A stretch of 12,414 nucleotides of DNA, taken from NCBI GenBank assembly GCA_025774615.1, contig JALGVQ010000079.1, positions 1 through 12,414 of the forward strand, given 5' to 3'. This stretch comes from a bacterium. GTDB taxonomy: Bacteria > Blakebacterota > Blakebacteria > Blakebacterales > Blakebacteraceae. Shown here piece after piece: positions 6,947 through 12,414 of the stretch; positions within the stretch are counted from its first letter, which is position 1, and each line of letters starts with the position of its first letter. Under the pieces are notes generated by a model, which worked only from the letters and a program-made list of their open reading frames with translations, did no database searches and had not been told where the DNA came from. Both the position numbers and the translations under genes were made by a program.

Positions 6947-7996
6947 CTACAGGTCGAGTATCCGGCGCAGTTCGAAGTGCCGCAGGGTCAGTTTGTATAT
7001 CACCAGTACGATCGTGAAAATGATGGTGAACCAGGTATGGGCGATCAGATCGGTATGCGCCGTCTCCCACAGGACCCGGATGATCGCTACCATCGACAGG
7101 GCGATGATACCGTTCCGCAGCCAGTACGACCTCAGCCCCCTGATGAGTGTCACCAGGTTCCACACCAGCAGAAGGAGCGGCATCCTCATCAGCCAGAACC
7201 CGACCACAACGATCAGGACCAGTATCGCGGTGTAGATCGCGTATCCGCCCGATGTCAGCTCAAGCAGGGCATAGCCCAGAAAACCGAGCAGGAATGTCAG
7301 CGCGTGGTAGATCAGCGGACCGTAAATGGCGCCCCGGCGATTGAACAGGAGCGCCGACCCGAGACCGATCGGGGCGAGGATGGAGAAGACGTGGATCCAG
7401 CCGATCCAGTGGAAACTGACCAGGAAGAAGAGCAGTGCCAGCAATGTACCCCACGCGGTACCGTATTCCGAGGTCAGCAGTTTCTGTATGTAACCACGGT
7501 AGAAGAACTCGTTCCTCAGGGCAGCTACGAATATCGCCACATACACCATATAGAAGATCGCGTCCCACCAGTCATTGATCGCCAGCAGCGACCGGGCAAC
7601 CTCGATTGCCTCCGGGCTTATCCAGAAACCGAGTGAGAACCACAAACCCATGAATACACCGAGATAAACGGCAAGGATCACATCCCTTCGACCCGGTCGG
7701 GGAGCGAATCCGAAGTCGACCAGCTTCCAGCCTTTCGAGAGCCACCGTATTGAAACCGGGATCACGAAGAGGCCGAGCACGCTGGCAACGATCCATCCGG
7801 TGTTGGTCGCCAGTGTCCCGAGGGTACCGGGAGCATCGAGGGCCTGTTCGAAGAAACCGCTGAAGGCCAGGTACTGCTGGATGAGATAGAACAGGGAGAA
7901 GACCAGGATGGTCTCAAGCAGGGCGGTAAAATGCTCGAGCCTCAACGCCGTGATATTGACGTCTGAGGAGGCGTATTTTCTGAGTCGTTCCCTCAT
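6947..7996 (-). CDS. CPBP/CAAX-protease-like integral membrane protein with altered motifs
   Basis: This is a 349-residue protein with about eight hydrophobic segments (for example 29-47, 66-83, 107-126, 146-160, 183-196, 205-218, 229-245, 255-280). It aligns by pattern with the CPBP (Abi/Rce1-like) intramembrane metalloprotease family. Motif 1 reads NEFFYRG (Asn162-Glu163 to Arg167), where the family has EExxxRG. Motif 2 is a His at 196 in LVSFH, without Phe four residues before. Motif 3 is His231 in IYHALTF, where the family has HxxxN. So one catalytic Glu and the terminal Asn are replaced while Glu163, Arg167, His196 and His231 remain; it may be inactive or differently specific. The first in-frame ATG outside the upstream gene is 7996, 19 bases after the aminotransferase stop and with no strong ribosome binding site. 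Further upstream ATGs lie inside that gene. It ends in TAG. Confidence 0.75.
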   Translation of the reverse strand: MRERLRKYASSDVNITALRLEHFTALLETILVFSLFYLIQQYLAFSGFFEQALDAPGTLGTLATNTGWIVASVLGLFVIPVSIRWLSKGWKLVDFGFAPRPGRRDVILAVYLGVFMGLWFSLGFWISPEAIEVARSLLAINDWWDAIFYMVYVAIFVAALRNEFFYRGYIQKLLTSEYGTAWGTLLALLFFLVSFHWIGWIHVFSILAPIGLGSALLFNRRGAIYGPLIYHALTFLLGFLGYALLELTSGGYAIYTAILVLIVVVGFWLMRMPLLLLVWNLVTLIRGLRSYWLRNGIIALSMVAIIRVLWETAHTDLIAHTWFTIIFTIVLVIYKLTLRHFELRRILDL

Positions 7997-8015
7997 ACCA
8001 TTCCGCGGGAGGCTG

Positions 8016-9320
8016 TCAGGAGGAAAGTACCTTCCGAAGTACGCCGATCCCCTGATCGACATGCTCCGTGGTGGTCTGCAGCGGGGGGCGGAACCGTAAT
8101 GACACGGTACCGCAACCGAGAGCCAGCATACCATTATCCATACAGCCGTTCAAGCAGGCATCCCGACCTGCCTCATCGGGCAGGTCGAACGCGCACAGCA
8201 ACCCGCGACCGCGAACGTTGCTCATGCTCTCGAATTCCGATGCGAGTTCTCCGAGCTGTGCCAGCAGATACTCCCCCACCACCCGGGCGTTCTCCACCAG
8301 GTCGTCCTCCTCGATGATCTCGAGGATACGGGTGAAGCGGACCATATCGACGAGATTGCCCCCCCAGGTAGAGTTGATCCGGCTCGATTCCACGAAGCAG
8401 TTCCGTTCCACTTCGTCGATCTTCGGTCCGGCCATAATCCCGCACACCTGGGTCTTCTTGCCGAACGCGATGATGTCGGGGATGACATCCTGCGCCTGAT
8501 GGGCCCACATGACACCGGTGAGCCCCATGCCGGTCTGGACCTCGTCGAGGATGAAGATCGCTTCATGCCGGTCGCACAGCTCCTTCAGGCCCTGAAGGAA
8601 TCGGTTCGTGAAGTGGTTATCCCCGCCCTCGGCCTGGATCGGTTCGATCAGCACCCCGGCGATCTCGTCCCGATTATCGGCAAAGGCCTGCTCAACAGCT
8701 GCCAGCGCTGTTTCATCGTTCCGCAGTGCGGCATCCTCATCCACCGGGAAATGCAGCGCCGGCGGATCGATGCGGGGCCAGTCGAAAAGCGGGAAGTACT
8801 GGTATTTGCGTGGATCGGCCGTATTGGTGAGGCTGAGCGTATAGCCGGTCCTGCCGTGGAAGGCATGCCGGAAATGGATGATCTTCGATCCCTTCTCTCT
8901 CCTGCCCGCTTCCAGGTTCTTGCGCACCTTCCAGTCGAAGGCGACCTTGAGCGCGTTCTCGACCGCCAGGGCACCGCCGGAAACGAAAAAGAGGTGCGGC
9001 AGATAATCAGGGATCACGACCCTGTCCATCGTCGCGACGAGTTCGGCCATCTCGACCGTATAGATATCGGAGTTACTCACCTTGTTGACGGCCACCCGGC
9101 CGAGTTTCCCGATGAACCCGGGATCGAGCATCTTCGGGTGGTTGTTCCCGAAGGGAGAGGAAGCGAAATAGGTGAAGAAGTCCAGGTACTCCTTTCCTGC
9201 GGCTGCGTCGCGCAGGATGAACGGAGTACTGTTCTCGGTATCGAGCACGATCGGATAGCCGTCCACCAGCATGTGTTTGCCAAGTATCGCATGTACGTCG
9301 GAAGGTGTGATATCGGGCAT
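8016..9320 (-). CDS. lat: L-lysine 6-aminotransferase
   Basis: The 434-residue protein is a class-III (subgroup II) PLP aminotransferase with the features of the lysine-epsilon-aminotransferase family. It would move the epsilon-amino group of lysine to 2-oxoglutarate, giving 2-aminoadipate-6-semialdehyde (cyclising to piperideine-6-carboxylate) and glutamate. Landmarks: the N-terminal DFFTYFASSPFGNNHP (47-62), the phosphate-binding region FFVSGGALAVENALK (111-125), HAFHGRTGYTLSLTNT (152-167), EPIQAEGGDNHF (226-237), the PLP Asp in FILDEVQTG (Asp259) and the Schiff-base lysine in AFGKKTQVCG (Lys288 judged by alignment with related enzymes). The motif GKKTQVCG is characteristic of this family rather than of ornithine or GABA aminotransferases. 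GAGGAG lies seven bases before the ATG, supporting the start. It is the first gene of the minus-strand run and diverges from the sigma factor gene. Confidence 0.93.
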   Translation of the reverse strand: MPDITPSDVHAILGKHMLVDGYPIVLDTENSTPFILRDAAAGKEYLDFFTYFASSPFGNNHPKMLDPGFIGKLGRVAVNKVSNSDIYTVEMAELVATMDRVVIPDYLPHLFFVSGGALAVENALKVAFDWKVRKNLEAGRREKGSKIIHFRHAFHGRTGYTLSLTNTADPRKYQYFPLFDWPRIDPPALHFPVDEDAALRNDETALAAVEQAFADNRDEIAGVLIEPIQAEGGDNHFTNRFLQGLKELCDRHEAIFILDEVQTGMGLTGVMWAHQAQDVIPDIIAFGKKTQVCGIMAGPKIDEVERNCFVESSRINSTWGGNLVDMVRFTRILEIIEEDDLVENARVVGEYLLAQLGELASEFESMSNVRGRGLLCAFDLPDEAGRDACLNGCMDNGMLALGCGTVSLRFRPPLQTTTEHVDQGIGVLRKVLSS

Positions 9321-9395: not shown

Positions 9396-9476
9396 GCAAA
9401 GTATACTCCGACTGCCTCTTCGGCCAGAACGGAGCCGATTTCGTCAACCAACCTGAAGCAGGCTCGTTGAAGTCTT

Positions 9477-10166
9477 ATGAACGCTGACAGAGAGAACACA
9501 TTTTCAGGTACCGGAAATATGAGCACAGGCGTCGAGCAGCAGGAAGCACACGACATCGAGGGAGGGTCTCCTGAGGAGGCGCGCCTGGTGCAGGCGTGTC
9601 AGGATGGAGACTCCGGGGCCTTCAACCTGCTGGTGTGGCGGTGGGAAAAACCCCTCTACAACTTCGTCTACAAATACGTAGGGGATGCCACCCTCGCCGA
9701 GGATCTGACTCAGGACACCTTTCTGCGGGTCCTCAAATCGATCCGGAAATACAACTACCAGGGTTCGCTCAGCACCTGGCTCTACCGGATCGCGATCAAC
9801 CTGTGCAAAGACCACCTGAAGCGGAAACGGCTGCCGATGGTGTCGATGCACGACTACTACACGACCGGTTCGGGTGAACGGATCTACGTCCAGGACAGGA
9901 TCAGTGACGAGGCGGCCCGGACCGATGACAGCCTCATGGCTGAAGAGAGGGAGGAACTGGTCAGAAGGCTCCTGGCCGGACTCCCCGAGGAAGAACGGAT
10001 AGTGATACTGCTCAAAGAATACCAGGAACTGACCTTCCGTGAGATCGCGGAGGTCCTCGACGTCCCTGACGGGACGGTCAAATCCCGCCTCTACCACGGA
10101 CTGAGGGCGATGCGGGAGAGCCTGGAACGTACCGGGATATCCGGCGCATCCGGGATCGGAGGTTGA
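9477..10166 (+). CDS. ECF-family RNA polymerase sigma factor (sigma-70 group 4)
   Basis: The 229-residue protein has region 2 at about 33-115 (LVQACQDGDSGAFNLL through DLTQDTFLRVLKSI to STWLYRIAINLCKDHLK). A variable linker follows (about 116-155), then region 4 at about 157-215 with the helix-turn-helix LTFREIAEVLDVPDGTVKSR. Regions 1 and 3 are absent, which defines the extracytoplasmic-function group. It would bind core RNA polymerase and direct it to a small stress or envelope regulon. The ATG at 9477 gives an unusual 30-residue leader rich in polar residues. A second ATG at 9519 would remove 14 of them, and neither has a strong ribosome binding site. The stop TGA overlaps an ATG of the next gene by one base (TGATG at 10164-10168), so the anti-sigma factor is co-transcribed and probably translationally coupled. 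Confidence 0.95.
   Translation: MNADRENTFSGTGNMSTGVEQQEAHDIEGGSPEEARLVQACQDGDSGAFNLLVWRWEKPLYNFVYKYVGDATLAEDLTQDTFLRVLKSIRKYNYQGSLSTWLYRIAINLCKDHLKRKRLPMVSMHDYYTTGSGERIYVQDRISDEAARTDDSLMAEEREELVRRLLAGLPEEERIVILLKEYQELTFREIAEVLDVPDGTVKSRLYHGLRAMRESLERTGISGASGIGG
10158..10162 (+). promoter_or_regulatory. Ribosome binding site of the anti-sigma gene
   Basis: GGAGG sits at the end of the sigma gene, three bases before the ATG at 10166 and six before the ATG at 10169. The spacing favours 10169 as the start. Confidence 0.55.
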
Positions 10167-10168
10167 TG

Positions 10169-10951
10169 ATGGACTCCCTGTGTGAACGGCGCGAAGAACT
10201 GGTGGTCTCTCTTCTCTACGATGAGGGGGATCCGCGGGAACTGGCCGAGGCCAGAGCCCATATCGCCGACTGCGAGGAATGTCGCCGCGAATATGAGAGC
10301 ATGGCAGGCACCCGCGAACTGCTCGGCGCCTGGCCGAACGTCTCGAATGCTCCAAGGGTGGTTTATGTGACCAATCCCTCGGATCTGGTGAGCCGCGTAC
10401 GGCGGTGGGTCAGCGAGATGGGCGGACTGGGGCTCAGGTCTCTCCTGCGGCCCGCGATCGCGACCGCGGCAGTGTTCCTCGTCATGGTGGTCGGGGTCTC
10501 GATCCTTCGATTCGAGGTGAGTCCTGAAGGGATCCTGCAGGTGGGGTTCGGAAAACGGAATGCCAATCCCGCTGCCGCCATGGTTGACAGAGGTCCCGGG
10601 CAGACCGGGGGAGGCGAGATCGTCCCGATCACCCGGGAAGAATTCGCACGCGCCATGGAAGATATGGCCCTCTACATCGACGATCTGGTACAGAACACAC
10701 GGGTGCAGGACCGGCAATACATCATGGCTCAGTTCCAGGAGCAGATGAATGCCCGCGACGAATATGTCACCAATACCCTTCTGACAGCGCTCAATACCGC
10801 TTTCACCGAGATGGACACGTACACCGCACGACTCGAAGTGCTCGCGGCCGCATTTGATGACCTGCAGTACATCGTGGGATCGGAACTTCAGAAGACCAAT
10901 ATGATCCTTGCCTCTCTCCTTCAGGGTGGCGATGACCAGGAATGGAAGTGA
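10169..10951 (+). CDS. Zinc-binding transmembrane anti-sigma factor with long C-terminal helical domain
   Basis: The N-terminus has the zinc-associated anti-sigma (zf-HC2) pattern: Cys5, then His31-x3-Cys35-x2-Cys38 in AHIADCEECRREY. This domain normally clamps the partner ECF sigma factor in the cytoplasm. A single membrane segment follows at about 93-113 (LLRPAIATAAVFLVMVVGVSI). The periplasmic part (about 114-260) begins with a Gly/Pro-rich linker. From about 155 to 250 it is a continuous amphipathic, coiled-coil-like helix (REEFARAMEDMALYIDDLV, then MAQFQEQMNARDEYVTNTL). That tail of nearly 150 residues is long for the family and looks like a sensor or docking domain. The gene follows the sigma stop by two bases and precedes the secreted-protein gene by five, so all three form one operon. 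Role by family is firm; what the tail senses is unknown. Confidence 0.9.
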   Translation: MDSLCERREELVVSLLYDEGDPRELAEARAHIADCEECRREYESMAGTRELLGAWPNVSNAPRVVYVTNPSDLVSRVRRWVSEMGGLGLRSLLRPAIATAAVFLVMVVGVSILRFEVSPEGILQVGFGKRNANPAAAMVDRGPGQTGGGEIVPITREEFARAMEDMALYIDDLVQNTRVQDRQYIMAQFQEQMNARDEYVTNTLLTALNTAFTEMDTYTARLEVLAAAFDDLQYIVGSELQKTNMILASLLQGGDDQEWK

Positions 10952-10956
10952 TACAG

Positions 10957-12414
10957 ATGAAGAACAGAACCAGCCCGACGAACCAGTTGATTGCCCTGAT
11001 AGCCCTGTTCACCGCGCTGGCGATCACCGTCACCGCCCTGCCGATCGGCGCCCAGGAAGTGGTTGTCGTACCTGAGGTCGAGCGGCATTACATCGACACC
11101 GCGCTGGGCATAACCGGGATACTCGCGCCCGAAAGTACGGTCCTCGGTGAGACCTGGTCGCTGCGACTCGAAGGATCACAGGAACCGCCTGAGATCCGGA
11201 TCATGAACCGGATCATCCGGACCGCCCTCGAGGAGGTGAAGGCGCCTGAACTGCCGGAACAGCTGACGGAAAGTTCGCCCCAGAACTATGCCATCACCAG
11301 CACCACGGGGTCGGGGAGACGGGATCTGGCTTATACCTACAGAGTCGGAGTCCCCGGATCCTGGAGCATGACTCCGTATTTCTCCGGTTCGCAGAAGGTG
11401 ACCGGGTTCTACATGGACGGGTATGGCTACCTCTTCAACATCCGGTGGCCGATCCGTCAATCAAACCTGCTCTCCACCTTCTCGATGGGTGGAGGCGATG
11501 ATCTCGTGATCACCCTGCAGGCCCAGAACCGGGCCCTGGAAGAACTTCTCATCCGGCGCGAGCAGAGGAGTCAGCGGGCTGCCGGTCGAGCAGATGCCGC
11601 CCCTCCCGTCGAAGAAGCAGAGGGCGCCGCAGAAGCAGAGCAGGCCGCCGCGGATCGGGAGCAGGAGATGGAGGCTCTGAGGGAGAGTCTCACAGCGTGG
11701 CAGTCGGAGTTCGAGGATCTCATCGTCGACGCGCTGAAAGACATTATGGCGACCTACGGCCACACCCTTCACCAGGCGGCAGATGACGAGAAGGTCACCT
11801 TCGTCTTCCAGCCGGGCGATGAGGCGGAGCAGAACATCACCCTCAGCGTCGAGCACGGAAGCCTGGGCGGTCCCGGCCAGAAGGACGCAGCCCTGCGGGC
11901 GATCACCGTCACCCGCGGGAGCGCCGAATCGAATCCGGCCCTGAAAAGCCAGATCCGCATCATGTCGGAGATCATCAACGCGGCCTTCGAGGAGGAGAGC
12001 GGAGTAAGCGAATATATTGGTGTCGTCAACTTCAGCCGAGCGTACTACTTCGGCGGAGAGGCCCGTATCCAGTACATCCCCGGGTATGGTGTCATCTTCA
12101 CCAAGAGCGCGCGGATGAACTTCGTGACGGTCCTTGAAGAGGCTGTCCCGACGCCCGATGCCCCTGCGGCGGCCGGCAGCAGGTCAGGTGATGAAAACCG
12201 TCGCGCACGGGATGTCTACCAGCGGGTGTTGACGATGACCGGTGAAGAGGCTACCGAGGCGTCCCGCGAGAAGCTGCGGGAGCACTTCGACAACCTGAAG
12301 CAGAAGACCGCGGAGATCTTTGCCACCTACGGCAACACCCTGACCGAACTGAAGGCTGACGAATGGGTGGGTATCAACTACGAGGTCGGCTCCTCGGCCG
12401 GTCTGCTCCAGTCA
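10957..12414 (+). CDS. Secreted protein with an internally duplicated module, unknown family, 3' end outside the window
   Basis: The ATG is five bases after the anti-sigma stop, with GGAAG eight bases upstream. The frame stays open for 486 codons to the window edge. Residues 1-32 form a signal peptide or membrane anchor (hydrophobic 11-31, ending PIGAQE). The rest contains two copies of one module. RIMNRIIRTALEE (81-93) matches RIMSEIINAAFEE (334-346). YFSGSQKVTGFYMDGYGYLF (141-160) matches YYFGGEARIQYIPGYGVIFT (363-382). FEDLIVDALKDIMATYGHTL (252-271) matches FDNLKQKTAEIFATYGNTL (444-462), each followed by a predicted beta strand. Copy 1 has an Ala/Glu-rich coiled-coil insertion (about 190-245). 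No catalytic motif or known domain is recognised. Operon position suggests a periplasmic or outer-membrane partner of the anti-sigma sensor tail. Cytoplasmic function is unlikely. Confidence 0.85.
   Translation, partial: MKNRTSPTNQLIALIALFTALAITVTALPIGAQEVVVVPEVERHYIDTALGITGILAPESTVLGETWSLRLEGSQEPPEIRIMNRIIRTALEEVKAPELPEQLTESSPQNYAITSTTGSGRRDLAYTYRVGVPGSWSMTPYFSGSQKVTGFYMDGYGYLFNIRWPIRQSNLLSTFSMGGGDDLVITLQAQNRALEELLIRREQRSQRAAGRADAAPPVEEAEGAAEAEQAAADREQEMEALRESLTAWQSEFEDLIVDALKDIMATYGHTLHQAADDEKVTFVFQPGDEAEQNITLSVEHGSLGGPGQKDAALRAITVTRGSAESNPALKSQIRIMSEIINAAFEEESGVSEYIGVVNFSRAYYFGGEARIQYIPGYGVIFTKSARMNFVTVLEEAVPTPDAPAAAGSRSGDENRRARDVYQRVLTMTGEEATEASREKLREHFDNLKQKTAEIFATYGNTLTELKADEWVGINYEVGSSAGLLQS

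Follow-up and report, generated by a model that had tools for sequence, protein, structure and literature searches.

The window, that is the whole stretch of 12,414 nucleotides analysed here, closes with three tandem genes on its forward strand. The first (9477-10166, +) encodes an ECF sigma factor: Pfam Sigma70_r2 (E 3.9e-20) and Sigma70_r4_2 (E 3.2e-16) match its product, as does TIGR02937 above its cut-off, and the presence of regions 2 and 4 together with the absence of region 3 places it in the ECF class. It is preceded by a putative ECF-type operon promoter, GTCAAC-N16-CGTTGA (9443-9470, +), conserved before the sigma gene in the four genomes out of four of the window's phylum. Because the ATG at 9477 is only 7 nt past the -10 element, the likely true start is the ATG at 9519; the sigma gene of the orthologous locus L008 begins at the equivalent MSTG. 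The second gene (10163-10951, +) encodes a membrane anti-sigma factor. Conserved columns among 48 homologues delineate an N-terminal helical anti-sigma domain, one transmembrane (TM) helix, a strand pair and a helical periplasmic tail, the TM helix and the strand pair having been read by eye. The motif Hx3Cx2C corresponds to H33, C37 and C40, accompanied by C7, and is conserved at about 85% in the 48 homologues. The zf-HC2 model reaches E 0.018 with the window protein, below cut-off, and 3e-7 and 8.5e-7 with homologues, above cut-off, while the RsrA model matches the window protein at E 1.4e-4. The motif within an N-terminal helical domain and the adjoining ECF gene assign this protein to the class I zinc-motif anti-sigma factors, and the sigma/anti-sigma pair of the original prediction is confirmed by the Sigma70_r2 match and by Hx3Cx2C.

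Class I anti-sigma (ASDI) systems with the zinc motif combine an Hx3Cx2C domain with an ECF partner (PMC7406223). The window pair shares both elements with systems such as RsiW and ChrR, whereas its anti-sigma factor differs from them by the strand pair following the TM helix and by the long conserved helical tail. To our knowledge, no ASDI system has been described with a third secreted protein of the kind encoded here.

This third gene (10957-12414, +) starts at ATG 10957, at a distance of 5 nt from the anti-sigma stop (10951), with GGAAG 8 nt upstream, and stays open up to the contig end at 12414, as originally proposed. Since the full-length orthologue (L003/L006) is 500 amino-acids long, the window copy falls short of about 35 C-terminal residues. 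Its product begins with a putative signal peptide (10957-11055, +), a hydrophobic stretch ending in GAQ that was read by eye and whose A-Q boundary is shared by orthologues. Module 1 comprises a helix, PEIRIMNRIIRTALEEVK (11188-11241, +), matched by the C-module profile as its domain 1, then a strand pair, SGSQKVTGFYMDGYGYLFNIRW (11383-11451, +), identified by profile alignment and harboring an invariant GYG. An acidic Ala/Glu-rich coiled-coil insert follows (11506-11748, +), recognized in the sequence and helical in the orthologue model; the coiled coil had been predicted for the first copy, and its length varies across the family. Next come the end of the ATYGHTL helix and two strands (11749-11857, +), placed by profile alignment and by the orthologue model. 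Module 2 (11932-12414, +), identified with the N-module model described below, is cut off and retains a helix, a strand pair, YYFGGEARIQYIPGYGVIFTKS (12043-12108, +), the ATYGNTL helix (12250-12357, +) and a strand.

Three blocks had been reported to recur in the same order in both halves, and an ancestral tandem duplication had been proposed. These blocks, a RIMxxII helix, a Y-F-x-G...GYGxxF strand pair and an ATYGxTL helix, fall in register when both halves of the window's orthologues are aligned, and profile comparisons and the module tree bear out the duplication. Forty-two two-module proteins were split at the second helix to yield separate N and C profiles, each of which finds the other's halves. 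Built without the window's phylum, the N-model matches the window C-half at E 3.2e-13 and the C-model the window N-half at E 1.2e-15, against E 0.03 for the best of 400 shuffled and 4 reversed control halves. Alignment by hhalign of N and C profiles of 40 sequences gives a probability of 99.8% (E 5e-28), and proteins possessing a single module are found by both models (E 1e-14 to 5e-34). When 102 modules are placed in a tree, a branch with SH-aLRT 99 sets the single modules to one side, and N modules separate almost completely from C modules (3 label changes, for a minimum of 2 and a shuffled mean of 45); the tree has long branches, which makes its details unsure. As N and C modules form separate groups, the sequences establish one old duplication, predating the split of the sampled phyla. 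The spacing of the blocks is unequal in the two halves, owing to inserts, as might be expected of a chance pattern of short blocks; the cross-half matches measured against shuffled and reversed sequences, the single-module relatives and the module tree rule out such an origin, whose probability is next to nil.

AlphaFold models computed from 4- and 6-row alignments are of low confidence (pLDDT 36.4 and 42.9). Both halves of these models show the same predicted order of elements, namely helix - two strands - long helix - two strands - helices, and Foldseek searches with them stay at noise level (best E 0.28). The per-module order predicted in these pLDDT 36-43 models would be like that of Roadblock/LC7-like or other helix-strand-strand-helix folds; no profile match of the family to such folds was obtained.

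A first family profile of 4 rows reached distant relatives, and a second one of 6 rows retrieved many more. Profile searches identified two-module members in all four genomes of the small phylum to which the window belongs, in 6/6 genomes of the phylum of G331 and in 41 of the 82 genomes of a large phylum, that of G192 and G322; a further one is present in G217. Single-module members occur in G209, G339 and G221, and in every one of the seven genomes of G101's phylum. These seven genomes each contain exactly two single-module paralogues (L129-L142), one within a sigma/anti-sigma operon and one away from it; the L132 copy sits at a contig edge. Standalone paralogues without sigma genes comprise L129-L135, L080 and L088. 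In G387 and G388, tandem two-module paralogues follow one sigma/anti-sigma pair, three of them in L094:4345-8066 and two in L093:4280-7446. Pfam and NCBIfam provide no credible match for any family member, only weak coiled-coil noise, and no credible chain was found by PDB sequence search, in line with the initial view that the protein belongs to no named family; nor did we find a published description in the open-licence literature. The weak matches L090 (ribosomal protein S11-like) and L091 were rejected as chance, and a phage or prophage origin was rejected as well, as four scans of viral contigs returned no relative. Judged by sequence, the family is thus uncatalogued, is missing from public family libraries and spans several uncultured bacterial phyla.

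The conservation of the trio in other genomes, proposed beforehand as a check, is apparent, clearly contrary to the refuting case of homologues without such neighbours. In 37 of the 41 genomes read out, an anti-sigma ORF lies directly upstream of the two-module gene, nearly always together with a sigma ORF; the 41 include L103 and L112, from the genus of G322, in which the fetched flank is too short to reach the anti-sigma gene. The median gap between the anti-sigma and family genes is 16 nt, and the operonic single-module members of G101's phylum overlap the anti-sigma gene by 4 nt in 7/7 cases. One gene intervenes between the two in G322 and G388. In one genus, a 431-residue secreted protein devoid of Pfam match is encoded between the anti-sigma and family genes (L241:2960-4255, also L086:5960-7255). 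In G403 (L238:1368-4499), a sigma/anti-sigma pair with an AAAACTT...CGTCTTA promoter is followed instead by the gene of a 447-residue outer-membrane-like, barrel-like protein. To note, a gene encoding an Rce1/CPBP-like membrane protein (window 6947-8134, -; L007:123-1172, -; Pfam E 4e-7 and 7e-6) has two neighbours in both genera, an aminotransferase gene and the divergently oriented sigma operon. Its product harbors NEFFYR in place of the usual EExxxR motif and belongs to the same superfamily as PrsW, a kinship that makes a protease link imaginable. At the other end of the window, a gene truncated by the contig start (3-1685, +) encodes a HEAT-repeat protein in which six tyrosines follow one another (VDYYYYYYNL).

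ECF factors use promoters of the form AAC...CGT, which the motifs described here share. The exact GTCAAC-N16-CGTTGA motif occurs once per genome in the four genomes of the window's phylum, with one extra match, inside a gene, and none for the reversed control. In the large phylum, 15 of 18 regions upstream of sigma genes contain AAACTT-N14/15-[AC]GTC, which has 0 occurrences in 136 kb of background. Judging by these motifs, the sigma operon is putatively autoregulated through an ECF promoter. With the strict form of this motif, 81 genomes yielded 29 sites, 15 at sigma/anti-sigma operons and 14 elsewhere, the latter being near the chance number (about 11 by simple counting) and exceeded by the reversed control. 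Ten of these 14 are in promoter-like position, and in scattered genomes the motif lies 33-240 nt upstream of genes for PDZ, LptD (E 3.8e-64), MoxR (E 2.6e-65), BatD-like and M48 peptidase (HtpX-type) proteins. Three loci from three families of one phylum (L151, L170 and L173) encode homologous secreted two-PDZ proteins, 38-44% identical to each other, with the motif 33-88 nt upstream; the L170 gene is also next to a different ECF pair. A further candidate target, a BamD-like gene at L162, was set aside as a weak case, since the nearby motif site lies within another ORF. In the window's phylum, a relaxed promoter search gave 44 matches, nearly all inside genes, and no conserved target beyond the own operon. 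Position and recurrence being the sole arguments for function, the motif targets tentatively suggest a sigma-E-like envelope stress regulon.

The closest parallel is provided by RseB, which occupies the same operon slot, binds the periplasmic domain of RseA (PMC8103513, PMC7400510) and acts as a negative regulator (PMC8103513). The RseB/MucB systems (rpoE-rseA-rseB, algU-mucA-mucB) share with the present one a third protein with a signal peptide, here predicted to be periplasmic, encoded after an ECF sigma factor and a membrane anti-sigma factor in an operon that in the present case is putatively autoregulated, and some signs suggest that the regulons overlap in PDZ-type genes and genes for outer-membrane assembly. 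RseB, however, is built from two unlike domains (PMC7400510), whereas the present family uses one module twice, with coiled-coil inserts; the LolA-like N-terminal and small C-terminal domains of RseB/MucB can be set only against family models of pLDDT 36 and 43. The Pfam models of RseB/MucB match none of 57 family members (40 + 17) at E 0.01, and PDB sequence search returns no RseB/MucB chain at E 10. As far as profiles can see, the family is unrelated to RseB in sequence, and for this reason we write that it may work like RseB and make no claim that it is RseB.

The explanation that we favor, at a likelihood slightly short of even, is that the gene is the third one of an autoregulated sigma-E-like envelope-stress operon and that its product modulates the anti-sigma factor from the periplasm, in the manner of RseB. 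The signal peptide, the old two-module duplication, the tight conserved linkage and the ECF-type promoter are established at sequence level; the protein may in addition act in the periplasm, contact the anti-sigma tail and modulate its cleavage. Through its two similar modules, it would bind this tail or a signal arising from envelope damage, and binding would set the ease of anti-sigma cleavage and of sigma release; the freed sigma factor would then raise the expression of genes for envelope repair (PDZ proteins, LptD, MoxR/Bat, M48 protease) as well as that of its own operon. This reading is supported by the linkage, by the predicted sharing of one compartment, in which the signal peptide and the anti-sigma tail place both partners, by the autoregulatory promoters, by the regulon hints and by the RseB slot. 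A partial Mantel (mirror-tree) analysis of the anti-sigma tail versus the modules gave no specific excess. Against the modulator reading stand the standalone and tandem copies, the G403 pair lacking the family gene, the lack of a wider regulon in the window's phylum and the near-chance number of motif sites outside the operons.

The extra copies and the G403 pair would also fit a co-regulated effector, namely a stress-induced chaperone or stabiliser, located in the periplasm or attached to the envelope, that does not regulate the anti-sigma factor, the slot being that of the strongest target operon of the sigma factor. The paralogues away from sigma genes in all seven genomes of G101's phylum, the two to three tandem copies of G387 and G388 and the barrel-like protein in the G403 slot render this reading nearly as good as that of a modulator, and the coiled coils are variable, as in holdase-like proteins. 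We consider it a serious possibility, if on balance somewhat doubtful: the linkage of two-module members is near-strict over at least three phyla and G217, and ordinary targets, we infer, rarely keep one slot over so wide a span. The protein might also be an activator or ligand, as opposed to an inhibitor, that carries a signal to the anti-sigma factor; it could, for example, trigger cleavage once it has bound outer membrane proteins or stray lipids. The same sigma/anti-sigma linkage speaks for this reading, and with its two similar modules the protein could engage a pair of partners; RseB, the known third component of this slot, is a negative regulator (PMC8103513), and such an activating role is improbable.

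Returning to the modulator, we tentatively propose, as a view that may well prove wrong, that sigma-E-like envelope stress responses of several uncultured phyla are under the control of a new class of periplasmic anti-sigma partners, perhaps stress sensors of a new kind, which are unrelated to RseB in sequence and arose by duplication of a module of which single-copy forms exist as well. The finding points to a widespread family, absent from public libraries, with a testable role, and offers promoter motifs for reading the regulons of uncultured phyla. If the proposal is true, RseA/RseB-type control would have arisen with another protein family, and position could serve to locate the third member of an envelope stress circuit where RseB is missing.
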